Shown piece after piece: positions 25,819 through 63,168 of a stretch of DNA of 64,000 nucleotides. The notes beneath the pieces are model-generated. The model worked only from the letters and a program-made list of their open reading frames with translations. It was not told the origin of the DNA and searched no databases. The stretch is from Nevskia sp. (GTDB lineage: Bacteria; Pseudomonadota; Gammaproteobacteria; Nevskiales; Nevskiaceae): contig NZ_JAKFUM010000008.1 in NCBI RefSeq assembly GCF_021732705.1, positions 62,001-126,000 on the forward strand, given 5' to 3'. The translations under genes were made by a program, and so were the position numbers. Within the stretch, counting starts at the first letter, position 1, and each line of letters starts with the position of its first letter.

Positions 25819-26212
25819 TGAAGCACTGACGAGCGTTGCGCTGTCGGGGCTCGCCACGGTGGGGACACCGCCGTTGCTGGTGGCGCCTGAGTTTCCGCTG
25901 GCAGCGCGGCCCTGCGGCAGTGGTCAGCCCACCGTGACTTGACCTGGTCAACGGCGGCGCACCCTGCCGGACGGCGAATGGTCGTTGACGATGGGCGCTG
26001 ACGGAACGTCCCGGCGAGGTCTCGGCGCTGCGCTTCCGGCTGGTGGGGCGCACCGGCAAACCCGGCCGCCGGATGCCCGAGCGGCAACGACACAGAGTCA
26101 GGCCAGCACCGTTCGCACGCCGGATATCACGCCACGGATGCGGTTTTACCCATTGCCGCCAGCCAGTCGACCGGCGACGCTTCGACGCACCTCACTGTCG
26201 CGAGACTCGCCG
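25791..26212. other. intergenic region before the amine oxidase gene
   Basis: About 420 nt without a convincing gene. It has the stem-loop above, a direct repeat GCGTTGCGCT at 25795 and 25833, and a 13-nt palindrome at 25939. An in-frame extension of the downstream gene runs back to 25985, but it lacks a ribosome site and encodes Arg/Pro-rich sequence ahead of a clear Tat signal, so I do not count it as coding. Confidence 0.65.
25939..25951. repeat. 13-nt perfect palindrome, possible operator
   Basis: TTGACC-T-GGTCAA, a perfect inverted repeat with one central base, about 260 nt upstream of the amine oxidase start. It has the size of a dimeric repressor site. No regulator gene is adjacent. 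Confidence 0.3.
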
Positions 26213-27697
26213 ATGACACCGACCGATCCTTCCCGCCGCCGCGTGCTCGCGGGTCTCGCTGCCGGCACCGGCGCGCCGCTGCTCGGTCTGGCGCCGGACG
26301 CAGCGCTCGCCAGCGGCACGACGGCGACCGGCTCGCTGGCGACCGATACCGTCGTCATCGGCGGCGGCTATGCCGGTCTGGCGGCGGCGCGGGCGCTGCG
26401 CGCGGCGGGGCGCGACGTGCTGCTGCTCGAAGCGCGGGATCGCGTCGGCGGGCGCTGCGTCAATCAGCGGCTGCCGGCGCCGTACGAGCGCTACGTGGTC
26501 GAAGGCGGCGCCGAATTCCTCGGGCCGACGCAGGACCGCATGTACGCCCTGGTGCAGGAACTCGGCCTGTCGACGTTCCGCGCATTCAACACCGGCCGGC
26601 TGGTCGATTATCGCAACGGCCGCCGCACGACCTATTCCGGCCGCATTCCGCCGGGCGCGCTGGCCGGTGCCGCCGAAGCGGGTCTGGCGCTGATCCGCCT
26701 GAACCGCATGGCGCAGGACGTGCCGCGCGATGCGCCGTGGAACGCCCGCGAAGCTCCGCGCTGGGACGCGATGACGGTGGAGCAGTGGATCGATGCCAAC
26801 CTGCTGACCAACGCCGGCAAGCAATTGCTGACCCTGGCGACGATCGCGCTGCTGTCGGCCGAGCCGCGCGAGGTGTCGTTCCTGCACTTCCTGCATTACG
26901 TCGCGACCGCCGGCAGCCTCGACTTGCTGCTCGATACCGAAGGCGGCGCGCAGCAGGACCGCATCGTCGGCGGCTCGCAGGCGATCGCGCTGGCGATGGC
27001 GCAGAGCCTCGGGCCGGTCATCCGCTATCGCGCGGCCGTGCAGGCGATCGAGCAGGACGGCAGCGGCGTCACTGTCCGCGGCGAAGGCTTCACCGTCCGG
27101 GCGCGGCGGGTGATCGTCGCGATGTCGCCGTGGATGGCCGGGCGGATGCGCATTTCGCCACTCGATGGCCCGCTGCAGGCGCGGCAGCAGTTGTCGCAGC
27201 GGGTGCCGATGGGCTCGATCTGGAAAGTCCACGCGATTTACCCGACGCCGTTCTGGCGCGCCGCCGGCCTGAACGGGCAGGTCACCAGCGACGCCTTCCT
27301 GCCGAAGCTGACGTTCGACAACACGCCGCCCGAGCCGGGCGCGCCGGGCGTGATGATGGGCTTCATCGACGGCCAGGACGCGCGCGATGCCGTGCTGATG
27401 CCCCCCGCCGTGCGCCGCGCCGCGGTCCTCGAAGCCTTCGTCGCCTACTTCGGCCCGCAGGCAGCGAACCCGACCGGCTATCTCGAAATGAACTGGCAGG
27501 GCGAGGAATACAGCGCCGGCGGCCCGACCGGCGTGTTCCCGCCCGGCGTGCTGACGGCGTATCGCGGCGCGCTGCGCGACCCGATCGGCCGCATCCACTG
27601 GGCCGGCACCGAAACCGCGACCGTCTGGTCCGGCTACATGGACGGCGCCGTGCGCTCGGGCGAGCGTGCCGCGGCGGAAGTGCTGGCGGCGTCCTGA
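26213..27697 (+). CDS. Tat-exported flavin monoamine oxidase-like protein
   Basis: A 494-residue FAD-dependent amine oxidase. The Tat signal SRRRVLAGLAAGTGAPLLGL is near the N-terminus. The FAD loop VVIGGGYAGLAAARALRAAG at about residues 46-65 and EARDRVGGRC follow. The C-terminal flavin signature is GRIHWAGTETATVWSGYMDG. It likely oxidises amines in the periplasm; the specific substrate is unknown. The start is chosen because it places the twin arginines near the N-terminus. It begins after a 420-nt intergenic region and is followed 18 nt later by the Cdd1-like gene. Confidence 0.88.
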   Translation: MTPTDPSRRRVLAGLAAGTGAPLLGLAPDAALASGTTATGSLATDTVVIGGGYAGLAAARALRAAGRDVLLLEARDRVGGRCVNQRLPAPYERYVVEGGAEFLGPTQDRMYALVQELGLSTFRAFNTGRLVDYRNGRRTTYSGRIPPGALAGAAEAGLALIRLNRMAQDVPRDAPWNAREAPRWDAMTVEQWIDANLLTNAGKQLLTLATIALLSAEPREVSFLHFLHYVATAGSLDLLLDTEGGAQQDRIVGGSQAIALAMAQSLGPVIRYRAAVQAIEQDGSGVTVRGEGFTVRARRVIVAMSPWMAGRMRISPLDGPLQARQQLSQRVPMGSIWKVHAIYPTPFWRAAGLNGQVTSDAFLPKLTFDNTPPEPGAPGVMMGFIDGQDARDAVLMPPAVRRAAVLEAFVAYFGPQAANPTGYLEMNWQGEEYSAGGPTGVFPPGVLTAYRGALRDPIGRIHWAGTETATVWSGYMDGAVRSGERAAAEVLAAS

Positions 27698-27715
27698 TCC
27701 GCCCGCGACGCCGAC

Positions 27716-28015
27716 ATGCGCAAGACCCGCGGCAAGGCCGCCAGCATCAGCGAGGCCCGACGCTTCACCGACCTGCCGAGCATCGGCCCCGCGGCGGCGA
27801 AGGATTTCGCGCTGCTGGGTCTGCAGACGCCGGGCGAGCTGGCCGGGCTTGATCCGCTGGTGCTGTACCAGCGGCTGAGCGTGCTGACCGGCCAGCGTCA
27901 GGATCCCTGCGTGCTCGACGTGTTCATCGCGGCGATCGATTTCGCCAACGGCGCGCCGGCGCGGCCGTGGTGGGATTACACCGCCGAGCGCAAGCAGCGC
28001 CACCCCGACCTGTGA
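27716..28015 (+). CDS. helix-hairpin-helix protein, Cdd1-like
   Basis: A 99-residue protein with a helix-hairpin-helix core FTDLPSIGPAAAKDFALLGL and a C-terminal LDVFIAAIDFANGAPARPWWDY, typical of the Cdd1 'pathogenicity locus' family, whose function is not established. HhH motifs usually bind DNA non-specifically. The basic N-terminus could contribute. The start is an ATG directly after the amine oxidase gene. Confidence 0.82.
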   Translation: MRKTRGKAASISEARRFTDLPSIGPAAAKDFALLGLQTPGELAGLDPLVLYQRLSVLTGQRQDPCVLDVFIAAIDFANGAPARPWWDYTAERKQRHPDL

Positions 28016-28082
28016 TCGCGGCACGCGGCGGGACAGATCGGCCAGACTGCGCGCCAGCCGCCATCCTCGGAACCTGCCCGCC

Positions 28083-28517
28083 ATGACCGACGCCGACTGG
28101 ACCCTGCACCCGCAACTCGCAGCCGATACCGTCACCGTCGGCGAACTGCCGCTGGGCCGGCTGCTGCTGTCGAACGATGCCCACTACCCGTGGCTGATCC
28201 TCGTGCCGCGCCGCGCCGGCATTCGCGAGATCCATGAGCTGGCGGAGGTTGACCAGCTGCAGCTGCTGCGCGAGTCGATGCTGCTGTCGAAAGCGCTGAT
28301 GGCCGTGTTCGCGCCGGACAAGCTCAACATCGCCGCACTCGGCAATGTCGTGCCGCAGCTGCATGTCCATCACATCGCCCGTTATTCGACCGATCCGGCC
28401 TGGCCGGCGCCGGTCTGGGGCCGCGTGCCGAGCCTGCCGTACGACGCGGACCTGCGGGCCGCGCGGCTCGCGCAACTGCGCGCGGCGCTGGCCGAATCGC
28501 TGGTCGCGGCGGGCTGA
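28083..28517 (+). CDS. HIT-domain protein
   Basis: A 144-residue histidine-triad nucleotide hydrolase-like protein. The core segment VPQLHVHHIARY holds the triad region. In classical HIT proteins this reads HxHxH, but here the first His position is Gln (QLHVHH). This variant forms a known subgroup of bacterial HIT proteins, so it need not be inactive. Other family landmarks are WLILVPRR and DKLNIAALGNVV. Substrate unknown. Confidence 0.85.
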   Translation: MTDADWTLHPQLAADTVTVGELPLGRLLLSNDAHYPWLILVPRRAGIREIHELAEVDQLQLLRESMLLSKALMAVFAPDKLNIAALGNVVPQLHVHHIARYSTDPAWPAPVWGRVPSLPYDADLRAARLAQLRAALAESLVAAG

Positions 28518-28733: not shown

Positions 28734-31157
28734 ATGAATCGGACTGTGCTTGCTGCATCACTTCTGGCCGCCGCGATGCTCGCGACGGCCCCTGCGACCG
28801 CCGCTCCGGCCAAGGCCGCCGCCGCGCCGGCAGCGCCGGCTGCGTCGCCAGCCAACCCTTACCCGGTCAGCGACGCGCCGTACGGCATGACCTTGCGCTC
28901 GGTCTCGCTCGAAGACCTCGCCAAACGCGACATCCTGCCGCTCGGCACCTACAAGGGCACTCCGCAACTGAACGAGAAGCGCGCGTGGTACGACGCGAAC
29001 TTCTACGCGACCCTCGCCGCCCGCAAGGTCTGGCCGGATGGCGCCCAGCACTACACGCATGACTGGCAGGGCCCGATCACCTGGAAGTTCGCGCCGATTC
29101 CGCAGGCCGCTCCGCCGCCGTGCGATCAGCCGCAGCCGACCGGCTACGACGCGGAGTCCTGCCGCTACGTGAACCAGCTGTTCAAGGATGTCGAAGCGCG
29201 CGATCCGGCCAAGGCGAAGGAGCTGCGGGCGCAGGCGCGCCGTGGCCGCGATGTCTGGTTCAAGGGCACGTTCGGCAATCAGGACGAGATCTACCTGCAC
29301 TTCGCCCGCACCGTGCCGAACGGCATGGCGGACATCTGGTACCCGTGGCTCGACACCCGCGAGCGCGCCAAGCGCTTCGAGAAGTACGGCCTGATCAACG
29401 ATCCGGACTGCACCGAGGGCGACGCCAGCACCTACTGGTGGGACCGTTGCCCGGACGAGCATTCCAGCGGCGTGCTCGGCTACCGCAAGTACACGGCCGA
29501 CCCGACCAAGGACGCCACCGGCAAGGTCGTGTTCGATCCGCTGAAGTCGCCGTACCAGCCGGACGAGCTGAAGAAGAACCTGCGCTACGTGATCGGCCAT
29601 CCGTGCGTGCAGTGCCACGTCGGCTTCGATCCGACCCGCCCGCCGGCCAACCCGAACCTGCCGAAATGGGAAAACATCTCGGCCACGATCGGCAACCAGC
29701 ACATCAACCAGCCGACGATGTTCTTCCAGGGCGCACCGGAAGACTCGCTGGCCCGCATCGCGCTCCAGGCGGGCCGCAACGGCACGATTGACACGAGTCT
29801 CGTTGCCAACGATTTCCAGAACAACCCGGGCACGCAGAACAACATCATGGATTTCCAGAATCGGCGCGTATTCACGCACACGATGAAGGATCCGATCACC
29901 GGCAAGCTCGAGAAGGGGCGCACGCAGCACGTGCTGAAAGGCGGCGAAGATTCCGTTGGCGACCACCTCGCGCTGATCCGCGTCTACGTCAACATCGGCA
30001 TGTGCACCGAGGAATGCTGGACGCCGAACTTCCCGTCGCCCGGCAGCTTCTTCGGCGACAAGGCCAGGCAGAAGCCGTTCCGCATCGCCCAGTGCGCGAA
30101 GGACTGCGAGCCGTGGAACTACGCCGACGCCAAGATGGACGACCTCGCCGCGTTCCTGATCACCGGCGGCCCGACCTACCTCGCCGCCGCGAAGGATGCC
30201 GACGGCAAGTCGGGGCTCGACTACATCGACCTCGCCAAGGTCCCGCAGGGCCGCAAGGTCTTCGCCCGCGAATGCGCCGGCTGCCACTCGACCAAGGTGG
30301 CGCCGGACAACGTCCGCCAGGACAAGGCCGCGCTCGAACGCTTCTACGACGGCCACGTGTTCGGCGCGGAAGCCTACTGGCAGCACGAGTTCACCGAAGC
30401 CGAGCGGACCAGTCCGGCATTCATCGCCAAGCACATGGCCAAGGACGCGAAGGGCGTGCTGCGCCCGGCGCAGTTCGCGAAGGACGACGTCTTCGGCCAG
30501 GACTGGCTCGGCAACGACGAGCCGACGCCGTTCAACATCGTCGGCACCAACCAGTGCCGCGCGCTGCACGACAACCACAACGAAGGCCACATCTGGGAAG
30601 AGTTCTCGAGCGAGGACTACAAGCACCGCGCGTCGCCGGGCAGCGTGCCGGAGGTGCTGAACCGCATGGTGCCGGGCGTGGGCGGCACCAAGGTCGGCGA
30701 GAAGAAGATCGAAGGCGGGCCGGGCTACTACCGCAACATCTCGCTGCTCTCGGCCTGGGCCACGGCGCCGTTCCTGCACAACAACGCCATCGGCGAGCAG
30801 ACCCGGATGCCCGACGGCAAGACGCTGGACTACACGGTCAAGGGCCGCATCCGGCAGTTCGAGATGGCGTTCGACGAGCTGATGACCTCGGACGATCCGG
30901 CGGTCACGCCGCACCGTCCGCAGAAGATCACGACGGTCGACCGCGACTTCTGGCTCGCCCCGCGCGAGGACGGTCAGGGCCTGATCAAGCTGCCGGTGTC
31001 GAAGGGCACGCCGATCGCCAACTTCGCCAGCGCCGATCCGCACCATCCGCTGGTGATGAAGTGCGATGACCCGGTGGAGAACAAGGGTCACCAGTTCGGT
31101 GTCAGCCTGTCGGCCGACGACAAGCGCGCGCTGCGCGAATTCCTGAAGCTGATGTGA
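28734..31157 (+). CDS. large secreted diheme cytochrome c protein, unknown substrate
   Basis: An 807-residue exported protein. The Sec signal ends around residue 24 and an Ala/Pro linker follows. There are two c-type heme sites: CVQCH (Cys291/294/His295, in GHPCVQCHVGFD) and CAGCH (Cys514/517/His518, in FARECAGCHSTKVAP). The second half has the look of the cytochrome c peroxidase/MauG superfamily, which includes rubber oxygenase RoxA. The roughly 220-residue heme spacing is similar in scale to RoxA. Extra cysteine pairs (MCTEECW, QCAKDCE) suggest disulfides. First gene of a probable five-gene unit; the next gene overlaps its stop. Enzyme class is inferred, the substrate is not known. Confidence 0.75.
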   Translation: MNRTVLAASLLAAAMLATAPATAAPAKAAAAPAAPAASPANPYPVSDAPYGMTLRSVSLEDLAKRDILPLGTYKGTPQLNEKRAWYDANFYATLAARKVWPDGAQHYTHDWQGPITWKFAPIPQAAPPPCDQPQPTGYDAESCRYVNQLFKDVEARDPAKAKELRAQARRGRDVWFKGTFGNQDEIYLHFARTVPNGMADIWYPWLDTRERAKRFEKYGLINDPDCTEGDASTYWWDRCPDEHSSGVLGYRKYTADPTKDATGKVVFDPLKSPYQPDELKKNLRYVIGHPCVQCHVGFDPTRPPANPNLPKWENISATIGNQHINQPTMFFQGAPEDSLARIALQAGRNGTIDTSLVANDFQNNPGTQNNIMDFQNRRVFTHTMKDPITGKLEKGRTQHVLKGGEDSVGDHLALIRVYVNIGMCTEECWTPNFPSPGSFFGDKARQKPFRIAQCAKDCEPWNYADAKMDDLAAFLITGGPTYLAAAKDADGKSGLDYIDLAKVPQGRKVFARECAGCHSTKVAPDNVRQDKAALERFYDGHVFGAEAYWQHEFTEAERTSPAFIAKHMAKDAKGVLRPAQFAKDDVFGQDWLGNDEPTPFNIVGTNQCRALHDNHNEGHIWEEFSSEDYKHRASPGSVPEVLNRMVPGVGGTKVGEKKIEGGPGYYRNISLLSAWATAPFLHNNAIGEQTRMPDGKTLDYTVKGRIRQFEMAFDELMTSDDPAVTPHRPQKITTVDRDFWLAPREDGQGLIKLPVSKGTPIANFASADPHHPLVMKCDDPVENKGHQFGVSLSADDKRALREFLKLM

Positions 31158-32863
31158 TCGCAGCGATGCGCGCCGCCGTCCTCGCTGCTGTCGTCGCCGG
31201 CCTGCTGACCGGCTGCGGCAATGATGCCGGCGTCGCCATCACGCAACTCGCGAAGCAGCCCGGCGCCGTGGCGGCGGACGCGCTGAGCGCGACGCTCATT
31301 CCGGCCGACGATCTGCCGCCGGACGGCACGCGCTCGCTGTTCGATCACCTGATCGCGGCCAACGGCCAGATTCCGTACCCGTTCCCGAAGCTGGTCGAGT
31401 TGATCGCGAAGCACGATCCGGACGCGGCCAGACCGCTCACCGTGCTGATTCCGCATGGCCGCTCGCTGCTGAAGGGGCTGGCCGACGACACCCACCCGCG
31501 CGTGCTCGCCGCCGCCGATTTCCGCGCCGCCGCCACGCCGGCCGCGCTCGGCCTCAACACGAGCGGCCAGCTGTTCCTCGGCTTCGTCGAGAACGCCAGC
31601 GAGATCGAGGTGCTGAGCTACAACGAGGCGGCAGGCCGCTACGAGTTTCAGTTGGTGCAGAACTACTGCGCCGGCTGCATTCCGAAGCTGGTCTACGCCA
31701 GGCGCGCGATCTGCACGACCTGCCATCAGGGCGCGGTGCCGATCTTCCCGCAGCGGCCGTGGAACGAGACCAACGGCGCGCCGGCCACGGCAGCCGCCAT
31801 CACCGCCGCCCGCCACGGCGATCAGCCGTATCTCGGCGTGCCGGCGGCGAATGCGCTCGGCGTGCCGGAACGCTTCGACCAGCTGACCGACGTCGGCGGC
31901 TTCATTCCGGCGACGCAGCGTCTGTGGATCGATGCCTGCGGCACCTCGGCCGATTGCCGCCGCACGATGCTCACGCTGGCGCTGACCTGGCTGCAGAATC
32001 CGGCCGGCTTCGATGCCCAGTCACCAAGCGCTGCCAAGCTGCGCGAACTGCAGGCGGCACACTGGCCGAAGACCGGCATCGTCGTCGCCGAAAGCGACCT
32101 GCCGAACCGCGATCCGGTCGAGGAGAACCGCGGCTTCAAGGGCTGGCTGCGCAAGATCACGACGCGGCAGCCCAAGCCCGGCGACGGCGCGAAGACGAAC
32201 GAGGATCTCGAAGCTTTCGACCGCCTGCCGAAGCTGAAGGCGGCGTTCGACCCGCTGAGCCCGCGTGCGCCGAAACGCGTGCTCGCCGCCAGCGACCTCG
32301 ACGGTGTCTACGGCATCGCGGCGCTGTTCTCCGATGCCGACCGGCAGTTGCTGGAAACGGCCGCCGCCGGCGATACCGCGAAGCTGCTCGCGGCGGTCGA
32401 CCAGATCGACGACGGCTTTTTCGCACCGGCCGTCTACTCGCGGGTCAAGACGGTCAACGCGCTGCTGGCCGCGCTCGGCGCGAAGCCGCTCGACTACTGC
32501 TGCCTTGACACCGCCGAGCTATCGCCGCCGATTGCCAGTGGCGAGCCGCCGGTGCAGCTGTCCGCGAACTCGCCGCTGCAGCATTACGAGCAGTACTGCT
32601 TCGCCTGCCACCGCGGCAACCCATCGAAGAAGCTGAACTTCATGAGCGGTGCCGACGAAGCCGCCGTGCTCGCCAACATCAAGGCCAAGGACGCGATCCG
32701 CGAAGCGCTCGACTGGTCGCGCTATCAGGGCACCGACCGCGCCAACAAGCTGATGCCGCCGGCCGATTCGGTGCAGCACGAGCGCCTGCAGGCGGCACTC
32801 GCGCAGAACCCGAAGCTGCTCGACGAGATGCGGGCGGTGGTGCCCGGATTGTTCGATTTCTGA
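31154..32863 (+). CDS. secreted diheme c-type lipoprotein, unknown function
   Basis: The signal peptide ends in a lipobox (LLTGC, Cys21), so a lipid-anchored periplasmic protein. Two heme motifs are CTTCH (about Cys187/190/His191) and CFACH (about Cys482/485/His486). CTTCH is followed by QGAVPIFPQRPWNETN, which I recognise only as a recurring motif of uncharacterised cytochromes. The GTG start overlaps the stop of the preceding gene as GTGA; an ATG at 31166 is an equally plausible start. 569 residues. Probably an electron partner of the 807-residue protein. Confidence 0.72.
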   Translation: MIAAMRAAVLAAVVAGLLTGCGNDAGVAITQLAKQPGAVAADALSATLIPADDLPPDGTRSLFDHLIAANGQIPYPFPKLVELIAKHDPDAARPLTVLIPHGRSLLKGLADDTHPRVLAAADFRAAATPAALGLNTSGQLFLGFVENASEIEVLSYNEAAGRYEFQLVQNYCAGCIPKLVYARRAICTTCHQGAVPIFPQRPWNETNGAPATAAAITAARHGDQPYLGVPAANALGVPERFDQLTDVGGFIPATQRLWIDACGTSADCRRTMLTLALTWLQNPAGFDAQSPSAAKLRELQAAHWPKTGIVVAESDLPNRDPVEENRGFKGWLRKITTRQPKPGDGAKTNEDLEAFDRLPKLKAAFDPLSPRAPKRVLAASDLDGVYGIAALFSDADRQLLETAAAGDTAKLLAAVDQIDDGFFAPAVYSRVKTVNALLAALGAKPLDYCCLDTAELSPPIASGEPPVQLSANSPLQHYEQYCFACHRGNPSKKLNFMSGADEAAVLANIKAKDAIREALDWSRYQGTDRANKLMPPADSVQHERLQAALAQNPKLLDEMRAVVPGLFDF

Positions 32864-32866
32864 ATT

Positions 32867-32970
32867 GTGAGGCGGGAGGCGATAGGCGTGAGGCGAAACG
32901 ACAACAGCGGAGCCCAAAGCGATGGCCGACGTGGCTTTTCACGCCTCCCGCCTCGCACCTTCCGCCTCAC
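32867..32970. repeat. short element with 29-nt imperfect terminal inverted repeats
   Basis: Left arm 32867-32895 and right arm 32942-32970 match as reverse complements at 24 of 29 positions, with 46 nt between. Both arms are made of GAGGCG-type units. It begins 3 nt after the stop of the preceding gene. It has the size and structure of a REP- or MITE-like element. The downstream gene's first 34 or so codons lie inside it. No other copy was seen in the window. Confidence 0.7.
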
Positions 32971-33733
32971 GGCAGCGGCGGAAGCACTGCTGCTGGCTAC
33001 CGTGTTTGCATCAACCGCCGCGCACGCCCAGCCGGTGTTCGCGCTGATGTTCAAGCAGCAGTTCGGCTACGCGCCGTCGTGCAACGCCTGCCACCGGGAC
33101 GGCGGTGGCTCGGCGCTGAATGCCTACGGCGAGTCGTTCAAGAAGGCCGGCGAGACGCTCGCCGCGTTCAAGGCGATCGAGATGCTCGATGCCGATGGCG
33201 ACGGCTTTGCCAATGCCGTCGAGGCCACGGCCAAGGCCAATCCGGGCGCGAAGGCGTCGACACCGAAAGCGCCGGGCGACTGGCTGGATCTGGCCAGCCT
33301 GATCCCGCGCGAGGTGCAGAACCGCTTCCCCGGCGTGAAGACCTGGCTGCCGAAGGATGCGCTGCTGACCGATGCCGACGTCGCGCGTGCCGCAACGCTC
33401 GGCGCCAAGCTCGGCAAGGCCGACGACAACACGATCTACATTCCGCTGGTCGAGCAGAAGCCGGCCGGTACGGCGCTGATCTTCGCTGCCGAGTTCCGCG
33501 GCAAGCCGTTCTACCTGCTGATGACGACGGATCGCCAGCTGAATGTCGCTGCGGTTGCACCGATGAACACGCGGCAGGTGCCGGCGGCGGCGAAGTCCGC
33601 GGTGTACGCGAAGTTCAACGGCCTCGCCGTCGACAAGCTGCCGGCGGCCAGCGGCGATGATCTGGATGCGGTGATCACCGCGGCGGTGAAGAAGGCCGGC
33701 ACCTTGCTGTACGTGCGACTGAAGGGCGCCTGA
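32867..33733 (+). CDS. secreted monoheme protein with EF-hand-like loop
   Basis: A 288-residue secreted protein. The signal peptide core is ALLLATVFASTAAHA, followed by one heme motif CNACH (Cys72/75/His76) and an EF-hand-like or dockerin-like calcium loop DADGDGFANAVE at residues 108-119. The rest is a globular domain of unknown type. The start is uncertain: GTG at 32867 or 32888, both inside the inverted-repeat element. No start codon between the element and the hydrophobic core would leave a complete signal peptide. It ends in a one-base overlap with the next gene. Confidence 0.72.
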   Translation: MRREAIGVRRNDNSGAQSDGRRGFSRLPPRTFRLTAAAEALLLATVFASTAAHAQPVFALMFKQQFGYAPSCNACHRDGGGSALNAYGESFKKAGETLAAFKAIEMLDADGDGFANAVEATAKANPGAKASTPKAPGDWLDLASLIPREVQNRFPGVKTWLPKDALLTDADVARAATLGAKLGKADDNTIYIPLVEQKPAGTALIFAAEFRGKPFYLLMTTDRQLNVAAVAPMNTRQVPAAAKSAVYAKFNGLAVDKLPAASGDDLDAVITAAVKKAGTLLYVRLKGA

Positions 33734-34677
33734 TGACGCGGATCGCCGCACGATCGGTGCTGGCGTGCAGCGTGCGCGCGTGCGCCGCGTGGGCTGGCGG
33801 CCGGTTGAGCCTTGCCCTGCGCACTTGCGTGGCCGTGCTGCTGCTCGCGTTCGCGGTGATCGGCACGGCACCGGTTCGCGCGGACGATGCTCCGGCCGCC
33901 GCACAGTCGCCTGCCGCAGCGCCCGCTGCCGCCGGGACACCGGCCAACGCCGATGCCTCCAAAGCCGACAAGGACGATTTCGACTTCTTCAGCGACCAGC
34001 CGGTCGCCGCCGCCGACATCGTGCAGTTGCCGCCGGAACGGCCGTCGTGGCAGACCGTCGGCGGGCCGATCGCGCTGGCGCTGTTCTTCTTCGCGCTGAA
34101 TCTGACGATCTGGCGGCTGGTGCCCTTTCCCAAAACTTCCTCGTCGCATTCGATCGACATCAACCTGCGCAACTTTCCGCCGGCGGCGAAGCGCGGCATC
34201 GCGATGGCGGTCGTGATCTTCGGCATCGCGTTCGTCTTCGGCGCGTCCGAGATCAGCTACCAGCTGAACCTGCACGGCTCGGCGAGTGCCTATTTCGATC
34301 AGATGTCGCTCGGCAAGCTGATCGCGTTCAGCCACGCGCACCTGTTCGGCTTCACCACCAGCTTCTTCATCGTCGGCATTCCGTTTTCGCTGCAGTTCAA
34401 CCAGCTGCGCGTCTACCAGTGGGTGTTCCCGGTCGGCCTCGCGGCGTCCCTGACCGACGTCATCTCGTGGTGGGGCATCAAGTACGTGTCACCGAACTTC
34501 GAGTGGATCAGCCTGTTCTGCGGGCTGCTGTTCACGATCAGCTACGGCTGGATGCTGATCGGCCTGCTGCGCGTGCTGCTGTTCCCGGAAGTGATCTGGG
34601 GCAGCGACAAGGACAAGGAAGAACGTCTGGCCAAGCGCCGCGCTGCGGAATCGACCAAGTCGGGCGGCCATTCCTGA
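33733..34677 (+). CDS. membrane protein with histidine-rich segment, unknown function
   Basis: A 314-residue protein. A hydrophobic N-terminal signal or anchor (to about residue 50) is followed by a long Ala/Pro and acidic periplasmic stretch. About five further membrane helices lie between residues 115 and 285. The segment IAFSHAHLFGFTTSFFIVGI carries two histidines at a helix edge, suitable for heme or metal binding. It fits no family I can name. TGATG overlap with the cytochrome gene means co-translation. Possibly the membrane electron acceptor of the module; inferred only. Confidence 0.7.
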   Translation: MTRIAARSVLACSVRACAAWAGGRLSLALRTCVAVLLLAFAVIGTAPVRADDAPAAAQSPAAAPAAAGTPANADASKADKDDFDFFSDQPVAAADIVQLPPERPSWQTVGGPIALALFFFALNLTIWRLVPFPKTSSSHSIDINLRNFPPAAKRGIAMAVVIFGIAFVFGASEISYQLNLHGSASAYFDQMSLGKLIAFSHAHLFGFTTSFFIVGIPFSLQFNQLRVYQWVFPVGLAASLTDVISWWGIKYVSPNFEWISLFCGLLFTISYGWMLIGLLRVLLFPEVIWGSDKDKEERLAKRRAAESTKSGGHS

Positions 34678-34740
34678 GTCTTCATTTCTTCACGGTGCGG
34701 CCTCAACGTCGCATCCGGTTTTCACCTGCGGAGCGTTTCC

Positions 34741-35964
34741 ATGATTCCCTTCTCGATCAAAGTGTTCATCTACAAGCTGTTCCAGCTCGCGCTGAAATGG
34801 TCGACCAAGCTGCTGACCTTCCGCACGCCGGAGCTGTTCAGCGGTGCCGGTTCGTCGCTGCAGTTGTGCGAGCACATCGCGACCCGGACCGACGTCAAGA
34901 GCCTGCTGATCGTCACCGACGCGATGCTGGTCAAGATCGGTCTGCTGAACCCGATGCTGGACAAGCTCAAGTCGCTCGGCATCAGCACCGTGATCTATGA
35001 CGGCGTGCTGCCGAACCCGACGATCGAGCAGATCGAGACCGGCCTCACGATGCTGAAAAGCGCCGGCTGCACGGCGATCCTCGCGATCGGCGGCGGTTCG
35101 TCGATCGACGCCGCGAAGGTCATCGCCGCCCGCGCCCGCAACCCGCACAAGATCGTCCACATGGCCGGCCTGATGCGCGTGTTCTTCAAGCCGATGCCGC
35201 TGTACGCGGTGCCGACCACCGCCGGCACCGGCTCGGAAGTGACGATTGCCGCCGTGGTGTCGGATCCGTCGACCACCCGCAAGTTCGCGATCATGGACCC
35301 GAAGCTGGTGCCGATCGGCGCCGCGCTCGACGGCGCGTTGATGGCCGGCCTGCCGCCGCACATCACGTCGGCCACCGGCATGGACGCGTTGACCCACGCG
35401 GTGGAGGCCTACATCTCGCGCAACCACACGCCGATGACCGATGCCGAAGCGCTCGAAGCGACGCGCCTGATCATGCAGAACCTGCCGGCGGCGGTCGCGA
35501 CCGGCAGCAACATCGAGGCGCGCCAGAACATGGCGGTGGCCTCGTTCAAGGCCGGCGTGGCGTTCACCACGGCGGGCGTCGGCTACGTGCACGCGATTGC
35601 CCACAACTTCGGCGCGTACTACCACCTGCCGCATGGCCTCGCGAACGCGATCATCCTGCCGTACGTGCTCGATTTCTCGAAGCCGGACTGCGCCGAACGC
35701 CTGGCCAAGCTGGCGGAAGTCAGCGGCCTGAAGCAGGGCGGGGAAAGCGATGCCGTGCTGGCCGATCGCTTCATCGCCCATATCCGCAAGCTCAATGCCG
35801 AGTTCGGCATTCCGACGCAGGTCGACAAGCTCAAGGCCAGCGACATTCCGGCGATCACCGACAAGGCGCTGGCCGAGGCGCACTGGACCTACGCCGTGCC
35901 GCGCTACATGGACAAGGCCGAGTGCGAGGCGTTCGTGGCGCAAATGCTGCCGAAGGCCGCCTGA
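34741..35964 (+). CDS. iron-containing alcohol dehydrogenase
   Basis: Group III (Fe-type) NAD(P)-dependent alcohol dehydrogenase of 407 residues. The nucleotide-binding GGGSSIDAAK is at about residue 118. The metal ligands are in SATGMDALTHAVEAY and GYVHAIAHNFGAYYHLPHGLANA. A hydrophobic N-terminal helix precedes the domain but no cleavable signal is evident, so it is read as cytoplasmic, perhaps membrane-associated. GCGGAGCG precedes the ATG. It closes the heme-protein cluster after a 63-nt gap, so co-transcription is likely but not certain. Confidence 0.88.
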   Translation: MIPFSIKVFIYKLFQLALKWSTKLLTFRTPELFSGAGSSLQLCEHIATRTDVKSLLIVTDAMLVKIGLLNPMLDKLKSLGISTVIYDGVLPNPTIEQIETGLTMLKSAGCTAILAIGGGSSIDAAKVIAARARNPHKIVHMAGLMRVFFKPMPLYAVPTTAGTGSEVTIAAVVSDPSTTRKFAIMDPKLVPIGAALDGALMAGLPPHITSATGMDALTHAVEAYISRNHTPMTDAEALEATRLIMQNLPAAVATGSNIEARQNMAVASFKAGVAFTTAGVGYVHAIAHNFGAYYHLPHGLANAIILPYVLDFSKPDCAERLAKLAEVSGLKQGGESDAVLADRFIAHIRKLNAEFGIPTQVDKLKASDIPAITDKALAEAHWTYAVPRYMDKAECEAFVAQMLPKAA

Positions 35965-36092
35965 GCGGCGATTGAAGATCCCGTTCCATCGGCTGCGCCA
36001 TCCCGCGGCCGATGGCGCGGAGTGGCCCCGGCGCTGGCGCCACCCGCGCGCAGCGCCGACAATCCGCATCGGTTTCAGAGATTCGGAATTCC

Positions 36093-36863
36093 ATGATCGT
36101 TTTCATCACCGGCGCCAGCGCCGGTTTCGGGGCCGCGATGGCGCGGCAGTTCGTGGCGGCAGGCCATCGCGTGATCGCCAGCGCTCGCCGCGTCGACAAG
36201 CTCGCCGCGCTGCAGGCGGAACTCGGGCCATCGCTGCTGCCGGTGGCGCTCGATGTCACCGATCGTGCCGCCATCGCCGCCGTCATCGCCGCGCTGCCGG
36301 CGGACTGGGCGGCGATCGACGTGCTGGTCAACAACGCCGGTCTGGCCCTCGGGCTGGAACCGGCACAGCGCGCCAGCCTCGATGACTGGGAGCGCATGGT
36401 CGATACCAACATCAAGGGCCTGATGACGATGACCCACGCGCTGCTGCCGGGCATGGTGGCGCGCGGCCGCGGCCACGTGATCAACATCGGCTCCACCGCC
36501 GGCGAGTGGCCGTATCCGGGCGGCAACACCTATGGCGCGACCAAGGCCTTCGTCCGCCAGTTCACCTTGAACCTGCGAGCCGATCTGGTCGGCACCGGCG
36601 TCCGCGCCACCGACATCGAGCCCGGCCTGTGTGGCGGCACCGAGTTTTCCGCCGTGCGCTTCCACGGCGATCAGGCCAAGGCCGATGCGGTCTATGCCGG
36701 CACCGTGCCGCTGACGGCCGACGACATCGCCGAAACCGTGCTGTGGGTCGCGAGCCGGCCGGCGCACATCAACATCAACCTGCTGCAGCTGATGCCGGAA
36801 TGTCAGGCGATCGGCCCGCTGGCGATCAAGCGCCAGCCGCTGCCCGGCGCGGCCTCGACCTGA
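36093..36863 (+). CDS. ydfG: SDR family oxidoreductase (YdfG-like)
   Basis: A 256-residue short-chain dehydrogenase. The cofactor loop TGASAGFGAAMA is at the N-terminus, VNNAG follows, the catalytic Ser lies in INIGSTAGEW, and YGATK is the Tyr-x-x-x-Lys. The C-terminal LLQLMPECQA matches the YdfG group of NADP-dependent 3-hydroxy acid and allo-threonine dehydrogenases. The start fits the normal N-terminus. Its stop overlaps the next gene. Confidence 0.87.
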   Translation: MIVFITGASAGFGAAMARQFVAAGHRVIASARRVDKLAALQAELGPSLLPVALDVTDRAAIAAVIAALPADWAAIDVLVNNAGLALGLEPAQRASLDDWERMVDTNIKGLMTMTHALLPGMVARGRGHVINIGSTAGEWPYPGGNTYGATKAFVRQFTLNLRADLVGTGVRATDIEPGLCGGTEFSAVRFHGDQAKADAVYAGTVPLTADDIAETVLWVASRPAHININLLQLMPECQAIGPLAIKRQPLPGAAST

Positions 36864-61347: not shown

Positions 61348-63168
61348 TTGAACACCGTACCCGCCCGCTTTCCTCGCCGACAGTCCCGGCGTTCGAGCCA
61401 GCGCGGCGTGGCCGCGATCTTCGTCGCGATCTCGATGCTGCTGCTGATTCCGATCACGGCGCTCGTGGTCGACATCGGCCAGCTCTACTACGCGCAGCGC
61501 GATCTGCAGAAACTGGCGACGATCGCCGCACTCGATGCTTCGCGCGCCCAGAGCGGCTGCTTCAGCAACGGCAGCGGCATTCCGGGCACCGAGGCCGCAG
61601 CGCTGAGCGCGGCGAACAACGCGCTGGTGGTCAACAACGCGCCGGCGGGTGCCAGCGGCATCACCGCAGCGGTGGCGCTCGGGCGCTACGAGGACATTGC
61701 CGGCACCCGCACCTTCACGCCATTGGCCAGCAACAATCCCGCCGTCGATGCCGTGCGGGTGACGCTGACCCGTCCGACCCCGCGGCCATTGCTGCCGTTC
61801 TTCAACATCGTGCTGCCGGCCACCGGCACGCTGGCAGCGTCTTCTTCCGCGCAGCACGCACCGCAGGCCTCGTTCATGATCGGCACGACCACGGTCACCG
61901 TGAACCAGGTCAGCCCGCTGAATTCGCTGCTGAGCGCGCTGCTTGGCGGCAACGTCAACCTGACGCTGATCGGCTACCAGGGTCTGGCCAACGCCAATGT
62001 CACGCTGGCGCAGATTCAGGCTGCGCTCGGCGTCGGCAATGCCGAGGACCTGCTCGACCTGCAACTGCCGCAAAGCCAGATTCTCGATGCACTGGCCACG
62101 GCACTGGCCAACACCGGTCAGACCGCCGCCGCCAACACGCTGCAGACCCTGGCCGATCTCGCCGATCCGAACCGCACGACGACGCTTGGCAATGTGCTCG
62201 GGATCGAGGACGGGGCGGCGGCCTTGGTCGATGCGCTGCCGTTCAACGCGCTCTCGGTGCTGCAGGCGCTGGCGTTGAGCGCCGCGCATGGCCTGTATCC
62301 GCTGAACATTCCGAACCTGGGCGTCAATGTCGCGAATCTGGTCAGCCTCGACACCTTCATCGAGGTCGGACAGCCGCAGCGCGAGTCCCAGCAGTTCGAG
62401 ACGATCGGCCTCGGCCGCCCGAGCCCGCTGAGCGCGCCGCGAACGGTTGCGACCACGCAGCAGATCACGCTGAAGCTGCGCGCCGTCGTCAACAATGTTC
62501 CGGGCCTCGCGGCCCTGGCGCAGGTCAAGCTGGGCGTCGACGTGGCGGTCAGCAGTGCCAGCAGCCAGCTGACCTCGATCCTGTGCCCGTCGGCGGTGTC
62601 GAGCCCAGCCCGGCCGCAGCCGGTCGTGGCGCTGAGCACGACGGTGATGCCGGCCTCGCTGACGGTCGGCTCGTTCAGCACGAGCAACCCGTCGGGGCCG
62701 TTGACCTCGGGATCACTGGTGTCGGCGCTCTTTGGCCTGCTGACGGTCAATCTGAATTCGGCACCGCTGTCGGCTCAGGTCGGCGGCGCCGGCCCGACGA
62801 TCAACACCTTCAATGGGCCGTTCCCGAGCGCCCCGGCGACGGTTGGCTCGAACATTTCGCTCGGCAACACGCTGAACGGCCTCAGCGGCAGCCTGCGCAA
62901 CAATCTGACGATCTGCGCGACACCGCTGCCCTGCCTGCAGGCGGGCGGCCTCGCAGCGGCCGTCACCGGCATCCTGTCCCCGGTCACGAATGTCCTCGAC
63001 GGCGCGGTGACCAACCTGCTGCAGACGCTGGGCGTGCAGGTGGGCGCGGCGCAGATCACGGTGCTGCGGCTCAATTACGGCAACGAGTCGAATGGCGGCG
63101 CCAATCCGCTGAACCAGGTGCCGAGCATCTTCAACGAGCAGGTTCCGGCGCCGCCCGCGACGCGTTGA
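61348..63168 (+). CDS. TadG-like surface/pilus assembly protein
   Basis: A 606-residue protein. A basic N-terminus (residues 1-19) precedes the TadE/TadG-type helix QRGVAAIFVAISMLLLIP at about 18-43. VDIGQLYYAQRDLQKLATIAALDA follows, a hallmark of TadG proteins. The long remainder is low in charge, rich in Asn, Leu, Ala and Ser, and looks beta-rich and extracellular. The start is a TTG with GGAG 8 nt upstream. No tad/flp genes are in the window, so it is an orphan here. Confidence 0.82.
   Translation: MNTVPARFPRRQSRRSSQRGVAAIFVAISMLLLIPITALVVDIGQLYYAQRDLQKLATIAALDASRAQSGCFSNGSGIPGTEAAALSAANNALVVNNAPAGASGITAAVALGRYEDIAGTRTFTPLASNNPAVDAVRVTLTRPTPRPLLPFFNIVLPATGTLAASSSAQHAPQASFMIGTTTVTVNQVSPLNSLLSALLGGNVNLTLIGYQGLANANVTLAQIQAALGVGNAEDLLDLQLPQSQILDALATALANTGQTAAANTLQTLADLADPNRTTTLGNVLGIEDGAAALVDALPFNALSVLQALALSAAHGLYPLNIPNLGVNVANLVSLDTFIEVGQPQRESQQFETIGLGRPSPLSAPRTVATTQQITLKLRAVVNNVPGLAALAQVKLGVDVAVSSASSQLTSILCPSAVSSPARPQPVVALSTTVMPASLTVGSFSTSNPSGPLTSGSLVSALFGLLTVNLNSAPLSAQVGGAGPTINTFNGPFPSAPATVGSNISLGNTLNGLSGSLRNNLTICATPLPCLQAGGLAAAVTGILSPVTNVLDGAVTNLLQTLGVQVGAAQITVLRLNYGNESNGGANPLNQVPSIFNEQVPAPPATR

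Follow-up and report, generated by a model that had tools for sequence, protein, structure and literature searches.

The diheme c-type cytochromes of the RoxA/OdsA/MauG group are credited with few reactions: they cleave rubber, dioxygenate fatty acids and form diols from them, mature a cofactor or reduce peroxide (PMC4496055, PMC6405878, PMC6311187). RoxA, for which Steroidobacter cummioxidans has served as host, acts on polyisoprene and has the ligands H195, H394 and H641 as well as the motif PYFH517NGSVP (PMC6311187), and PA2077/PA2078 (OdsA/OdsB, proposed FadCcp) act on long-chain unsaturated fatty acids, with hemes 245 and 235 residues apart compared to 199 in RoxA (PMC4496055). Herein we describe a locus in Nevskia sp. 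(GCF_021732705.1, a genome of 4.5 Mb), located in a stretch of 64,000 nucleotides (NZ_JAKFUM010000008.1, positions 62,001–126,000; G000:C7 in our numbering) that we refer to as the window. Five genes, g1 to g5, lie on the forward strand at 28734–35964 of the window (Table 1), and their coordinates and motifs confirmed the content given in an earlier sequence-only reading (hereafter the original prediction): two diheme proteins and one monoheme protein, a membrane protein with a His-x-His pair and an iron-type alcohol dehydrogenase (Fe-ADH). We found that g1–g4 form a conserved block built around a distant relative of RoxA, and that g5 tracks this block, in most cases from elsewhere in the genome. 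The function of g1–g4 seems not to have been described before, as was originally supposed: no description of the block was found among the titles and abstract openings that searches of open-licence PMC papers listed, and one may exist elsewhere. Given its conserved context and an apparent heme relay of its own in cultured organisms, a further function of the group becomes directly testable, and a shared role would be given to three protein families without an assigned function.

A four-gene block shared across bacterial families

Gene order was compared in 21 extended loci (20 plus the window's own) and in 55 public loci, the latter overlapping with our set of 85 genomes of the order Nevskiales and including genomes that gave two contigs, meaning that the loci are not independent. 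Seven of the public loci are cut by a contig end, and in 45 of the 48 with enough sequence g1-g2-g3-g4 occur in the same order and on the same strand (44 called by script plus L059, whose touching g1 and g2 the script scored apart). The remaining three are missing g4 (L094), g3 and g4 (L106) or g2 to g4 (L098). The order was likewise kept in 20 of the 21 extended loci, with L053 having no g4 within the sequence fetched. Spacing varies, with 2.1 kb between g2 and g3 in L048, 2.6 kb between g3 and g4 in L052 and L054, and a gene of ~210 amino acids between g1 and g2 in L072, L073 and L101 (comparable gaps were seen in L074 and L097). Since the identity of the four genes spans ~43–92% across several bacterial families, the block cannot be put down to chance. 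The original prediction had taken all five genes as one cluster; g5 is the only one that is scattered, its relatives lying elsewhere in other genomes, and the conserved unit thus consists of four genes.

The block is carried by many aquatic bacteria, among them Nevskiales, Limnobacter, environmental Moraxellaceae, Oleiphilus and metagenome-assembled genomes (MAGs) of Leptospiraceae. Nevskia MAGs are among the closest public loci, and cultured carriers include Solimonas fluminis, Limnobacter humi, L. litoralis, Agitococcus lubricus, Stagnimonas aquatica and Perlucidibaca aquatica. Within the order, g1 is present in 33 of the 85 genomes, and a strong g4 match was found in 5 of 369 genomes evenly sampled from the class (the window's own included), which makes the module uncommon. 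In the g1, g2 and g4 trees, which were rooted at the midpoint, Limnobacter sequences nest among Nevskiales (a node given without a support value), and three Leptospiraceae MAGs fall inside a clade that also holds Moraxellaceae, Oleiphilus and one MAG of the Rhodocyclaceae (support 0.95, 1.00 and 1.00, respectively). These topologies suggest that g1–g4 were transferred as a block; binning errors are possible, since the sequences from Leptospiraceae and Rhodocyclaceae come from MAGs.

A genome of the same genus (G024) retains a remnant of the module (L262 6179–7854), in which approximately the first 155 residues of g1 are followed by the end of g3, ~4.1 kb are missing relative to the window, and g4 is split over two frames. 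Of the 21 extended loci, 12 have a HIT relative upstream of the module, and in three chosen module-negative genomes (G016, G017 and G046) the HIT gene and an acyl-reductase-like gene are close, with one reading resembling a short-chain dehydrogenase/reductase (SDR) between them. Because these two genes flank the module in several relatives and are near each other without it, the module seems to be gained and lost at one genomic place.

The first protein is a distant relative of RoxA

The architecture of g1 is that of RoxA, RoxB and RoxC (4b2n; NF050033, NF050034, NF051462), i.e., an exported protein with two c-type hemes ~200–225 residues apart, two CxxCH sites, a histidine in a MauG-type motif and a late ligand histidine, with different motif letters (PFLHNNAIGE in g1 vs. 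P(Y/F)xHN(G/S)SVP). The heme spacing of 223 residues is on the RoxA scale, as originally noted, and the extra cysteines noted along with it amount to ten that are invariant among 34 members besides those of the heme sites. These cysteines and the three partner genes set g1 apart from RoxA, RoxB and RoxC. The heme sites were placed by a RoxC-type profile match, and H682 and H786 by a match to the NF040606 profile together with motif likeness to RoxA; on these alignments H295, H518, H786 and H682 are likely the counterparts of RoxA H195, H394, H641 and H517.

Profile comparison linked g1 to two reference alignments. The first holds 13 RoxA-like proteins drawn from the many that occur in the order (it matches 4b2n at E 2.5e-169, and its head member, the one scanned, passes NCBIfam RoxC with 1347 bits vs. 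900), and g1 aligned to it with a probability of 88 (E 3.2e-6) over 292 columns spanning both hemes. The second holds five NF040606-type (CytoC_perox) proteins from three genomes (4b2n at E 3.1e-14; head member alone scanned), and the match (probability 93.8, E 1.8e-7) covered 97 columns including the C-terminal MauG motif and NxGHxxG...LK, features that g1 thereby shares with PA2077/PA2078 as represented by NF040606 proteins. The negative control, g2 against the g1 profile, gave a probability of 1.3%. An AlphaFold model of g1 (mean predicted local distance difference test, pLDDT, 76; predicted template-modelling score, pTM, 0.80) had RoxA 4b2n as its best Foldseek match (E 8.6e-3, 903 columns, 13% identity), and MauG chains made up 15 of the other 31 matches listed. 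Fold and profile evidence thus bears out the likeness to RoxA proposed in the original prediction, with matches that are distant.

Curated models place g1 outside the named families. The window's g1 had no match to the RoxA, RoxB or RoxC models at E 0.1, and NF040606 scored 42.8 bits over residues 495–686 against a cutoff of 150. PF21419 (RoxA-like) was found below its cutoff in 28 of the 34 members at E 0.05 (14.7 bits vs. 26.7 for the window's g1). A PDB sequence search returned no phmmer match between 4b2n and g1 at E 1, and none with the g1 family profile. Published work sets at least 30% identity and 60% coverage for RoxA/RoxB (PMC10837239), and g1 falls short of this against RoxA 4b2n, the one of the two that was compared. 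Since the RoxA, RoxB, RoxC and NF040606 models are not passed, g1 is not a member of those families despite the shared architecture; judged by fold and profile, it is part of the wider RoxA/OdsA/MauG diheme group, as a separate and distant subfamily.

Two other heme enzymes were considered for g1 and ruled out. The fatty-acid cis/trans isomerase Cti is another heme-c lipid enzyme of a size similar to g1, and no Cti model was among the Pfam and NCBIfam matches listed. MauG and the bacterial cytochrome c peroxidases (CCPs; PF03150) are diheme as g1 is, but g1 is roughly double a CCP in size (35–40 kDa; PMC4496055), and a canonical CCP is excluded by the absence of PF03150 from the window's g1 at E 0.1 and from the 34 members at E 0.05. 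No full alignment of g1 with a characterised peroxidase appeared in the Pfam, NCBIfam and PDB searches.

RoxA-like matches (PF21419, E 0.01) are strongly expanded in some relatives of the window genome, with 18 in G050, 12 each in G049 and G025, and 11 in G001; the window genome has only the weak g1 match. Tandem pairs of diheme proteins (~630 amino acids each), over or near the NF040606 model and reminiscent of PA2077/PA2078, occur in L237 (209–4064) and L238 (376–4191), and one member of each pair is without the PY/F-L-H-N pattern. The first protein of L237 (634 amino acids) is ~170 residues shorter than g1.

Partner proteins of the putative relay

The model of g2 is confident (pLDDT 87, pTM 0.87) yet had no PDB fold match better than E 1.8 in Foldseek, and the g2, g3 and g4 profiles had no match at E 1 among PDB sequences. 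In contrast to pairs of the PA2077/PA2078 type, the fold of g1 is not repeated in g2, a possibility ruled out by the control probability given above. A simple lipobox pattern was seen in 5 of 34 g2 members, the window's included, so most relatives may use an N-terminal helix anchor or none. In g3 a temptin-like CxxCH...DxDxDG segment is joined to a conserved C-terminal domain, for which flavin binding is a conjecture; Temptin_C was weakly matched in 30 of 31 members and TSP3 in 16 of 31, while NF041762 scored 56.5 bits (cutoff 300).

Pfam and NCBIfam gave single-member hits only for g4. Six remote relatives (three from one genus) are membrane proteins of 252–275 amino acids with one CxxCH and the motifs HIHLFG and SWWLTK, and an alignment of such membrane-anchored monoheme proteins matched g4 with a probability of 97.5 (E 5.6e-12, 95 columns); two of the aligned proteins were tested and matched no Pfam or NCBIfam model. 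Whereas these proteins carry their own CxxCH domain, g4 has none, and the heme sites of the block are in the separate g2 and g3. g4 therefore looks like a membrane protein of this type without its own heme c, which may be supplied by g2 or g3. Its kinship to heme-c-bearing membrane proteins makes it a plausible electron carrier, in agreement with the original prediction.

At another locus (L257 6310–11451), a gene for a g4-like membrane monoheme protein shares its strand with the genes of both [NiFe]-hydrogenase subunits, small and large, and stands in line with them and with a HupE-like gene. This g4-like protein may be an unrecognised membrane partner.

An alcohol dehydrogenase that tracks the module

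g5 belongs to the Fe-containing alcohol dehydrogenases, with matches to PF25137 (E 1.5e-49) and PF00465 (E 2.3e-42) that are both above cutoff and strong matches to known Fe-ADHs such as AdhB of Zymomonas (3owo) and lactaldehyde reductase. It carries DALTH at 215, HAIAH at 284 and HLPHG at 295, which we take to be metal-ligand motifs. Of the 16 NCBIfam models listed it reaches the cutoff of none, and it has a hydrophobic N-terminal segment.

Among the 21 extended and 55 public loci, some of them contig-cut, an Fe-ADH adjoins the block only in the window and in L105, from an Oleiphilus MAG. The Oleiphilus genome has two Fe-ADH relatives (55% and 46%) on different contigs, and by identity the block-adjacent copy is the 46% one. 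The surroundings of g5 in 18 other genomes were varied, with no neighbour family in more than 4 of 19 loci. A plain five-gene operon is ruled out, as the adjacency of g5 is not conserved.

Presence of g5 follows the module closely within the order: a relative (E 1e-60 or better) was found in 32 of the 33 module genomes vs. 8 of the 52 without the module (Fisher p 8.7e-15, phylogeny ignored). The sole g1-positive genome without g5 is G024 (assembly 89% complete), where loss of the module, of which the remnant is left, thus coincides with a lack of g5. In the Limnobacter family (151 genomes) g1 occurs in 4 and g5 (E 1e-100) in 8 genomes, with 3 shared (one-sided p 3.9e-4), from which it follows that g5 also exists without the module. 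Eight of 18 module genomes, mostly from other lineages, have a g5 relative of at least 55% identity; at least one of the 18 (G102) shares hit coordinates with G061 of the order set. The idea that the Fe-ADH works in the same pathway as the module therefore survives in a weaker form, in which g5 may take part in the same process on the strength of its co-occurrence, though not as a member of the cluster.

In 8 of 34 loci, an acyl-reductase-like SDR gene is found downstream of the module. As it is present in 80 of the 85 genomes and also lies close to the HIT gene in the chosen genomes without the module (G016, G017 and G046), it marks the locus and not a function, and was rejected as a functional neighbour. 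It matched only SDR models and PF07993, and presumably resembles the Marinobacter fatty acyl-CoA reductases. An Fe-ADH relative shares a 6.8-kb contig with RoxA-like matches in G062 (L239 1345–2565), and one lies ~2 kb from the acyl-reductase-like gene in G064 and G065 (L240 1215–6505; L241 1317–6302).

A possible membrane-wired oxygenase and its alternatives

The reading that we favour, which we regard as possible while short of probable, is that g1–g4 constitute a membrane-wired extracytoplasmic system that oxygenates or peroxygenates an unsaturated lipid or hydrocarbon. Outside the cytoplasm, the four proteins would make up a redox module that is complete in itself and can be transferred horizontally; g1 would activate O2 or a peroxide at its N-terminal heme (H295) and pass electrons via its C-terminal heme (H518/H786). 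The diheme, membrane-tethered g2 and the monoheme g3 would relay electrons between g1 and g4, and g4 would connect this relay to the quinone pool or to some other carrier in the membrane. A hydrophobic unsaturated substrate would be oxygenated or peroxygenated, with reductive activation via g4-g3-g2, and the long-chain alcohol and aldehyde products would be interconverted by the cytoplasmic g5. The fold group and ligands of g1 imply that its N-terminal heme reacts with O2 or peroxide and that its C-terminal heme transfers electrons. A net exchange of electrons with the membrane is suggested by the membrane protein together with the three hemes that g2 and g3 contribute. We favour a membrane-linked lipid or hydrocarbon oxygenase because the oxygenases known in the group attack hydrophobic double bonds and because relay proteins are present. 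In the Oleiphilus MAG, a gene for a flavin-containing monooxygenase (FMO-type) precedes g1 by ~1.1 kb, with one open reading frame between, and is also counted in favour of this reading.

Several points weigh against such an oxygenase. RoxA and OdsA are not known to require a membrane relay of their own, and the relay of g1–g4 may therefore mean a different reaction. RoxA F317 and W302 were not placeable in g1 from the alignments available. None of the Foldseek matches of g1 reached E 0.001, and the TM-scores to RoxA were only 0.26/0.31, with a model that is heme-free and has the pLDDT of 76 reported above. The correlation of g5 with the module is not corrected for phylogeny, and among the 18 module genomes three are without g5 at the threshold used, one has only a 42% fragment and six Moraxellaceae have only relatives of 39–47%. 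The downstream position of the acyl-reductase-like gene carries no information, given how widespread the gene is. We consider it somewhat unlikely that the system amounts to a new class, in which a RoxA/OdsA-like diheme enzyme would, unlike its stand-alone relatives, be membrane-wired by a heme relay of three dedicated proteins (one of them diheme and of a fold not seen so far), oxidise a lipid or hydrocarbon outside the cytoplasm, be exchanged between Proteobacteria and Leptospiraceae as a four-gene unit and depend on a long-chain alcohol dehydrogenase of the host.

A quinol-linked peroxidase, in which electrons would run from g4 through g3/g2 to g1 and reduce H2O2 or lipid hydroperoxides for detoxification or respiration, fits the electron supply that a multi-heme relay and a membrane protein could provide, but g1 is without PF03150, far exceeds a CCP in size and has its ten extra invariant cysteines, and the link to g5 would be left without explanation; we judge it unlikely. 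In a MauG-like maturase, g1 would oxidise residues of a partner such as g2 into a protein-derived cofactor, and g2 would be the true catalyst. The recurrence of MauG chains in the fold search of g1 would agree with this, as would the confident g2 model without a PDB match and the position of g2 downstream of g1 in 47 of the 48 loci with room; against it, the profile comparisons of g1 concern RoxC-type and NF040606 proteins only, and it appears distinctly improbable. The pathway first proposed for the window, with periplasmic oxidation, electrons leaving through g4 and products passing to the adjacent Fe-ADH, has the window's gene order, the Fe-ADH after the block in L105 and the co-occurrence on its side, but is very improbable with the Fe-ADH not adjacent in the other 20 of 21 extended and 54 of 55 public loci (some contig-cut) and with the closest Oleiphilus copy (55%) on a different contig from the 46% one.

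Layout of the locus

Table 1 Features of the locus, in window coordinates.
Feature	Position	Strand	Description
g1	28734..31157	+	807 aa, exported, diheme; separate subfamily within the RoxA/OdsA/MauG group
g1 N-terminal heme site CVQCH	29604..29618	+	residues 291–295; H295 invariant in 34/34
g1 C-terminal heme site CAGCH	30273..30287	+	residues 514–518; H518 invariant in 34/34
g1 MauG-type motif PFLHNNAI	30768..30791	+	residues 679–686; H682 invariant in 34/34; likely equivalent to RoxA PYFH517NGSVP
g1 C-terminal motif ENKGHQFG	31077..31100	+	residues 782–789; H786 invariant in 34/34; likely equivalent to RoxA H641
g2	31154..32863	+	569 aa, diheme, CTTCH at 187 and CFACH at 482; lipobox-like LTGC
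Dispersed palindromic repeat	32867..32970	.	g2/g3 junction; overlaps annotated g3 start
g3	32867..33733	+	288 aa, exported, monoheme, CNACH at 72 followed by D-x-D-x-D-G loop; start uncertain
g4	33733..34677	+	314 aa, multi-helix membrane protein; invariant HAH (H201-A-H203) and SWWG
g5	34741..35964	+	407 aa, Fe-type alcohol dehydrogenase; usually apart from the module

The first four genes had been described as linked by overlaps or a gap of 3 nt, which holds for the overlaps of 4 nt (g1/g2) and 1 nt (g3/g4). The gap of 3 nt that would separate g3 from g2 presupposes the annotated GTG start (32867), and a palindromic repeat begins at this very base. With the start inside the repeat, the gap is no sign of tight coupling and the start of g3 is uncertain; the signal peptide of g3 begins immediately past the repeat. 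The repeat consists of GTGAGGCGGGAGGCG-type words in two 29-nt arms (83% complementary), has partial copies at five further sites in the window genome, two of which were inspected, and the folding of 32861–32995 beats 200 of 200 shuffles (z −3.96). Between g2 and g3 of a sibling genome lies a partial second 3' end of g2 (L057 6773–6853, reversed-stretch coordinates; 74% to residues 544–569), and the junction is thus variable within the genus. The spacing from g4 to g5 is 63 nt, and a promoter and terminator scan gave signals not above those of shuffles. The upstream flank (25985–28517) encodes a flavin amine oxidase, a Cdd1 protein and a HIT protein, and an SDR gene (36012–36863) lies downstream of g5.

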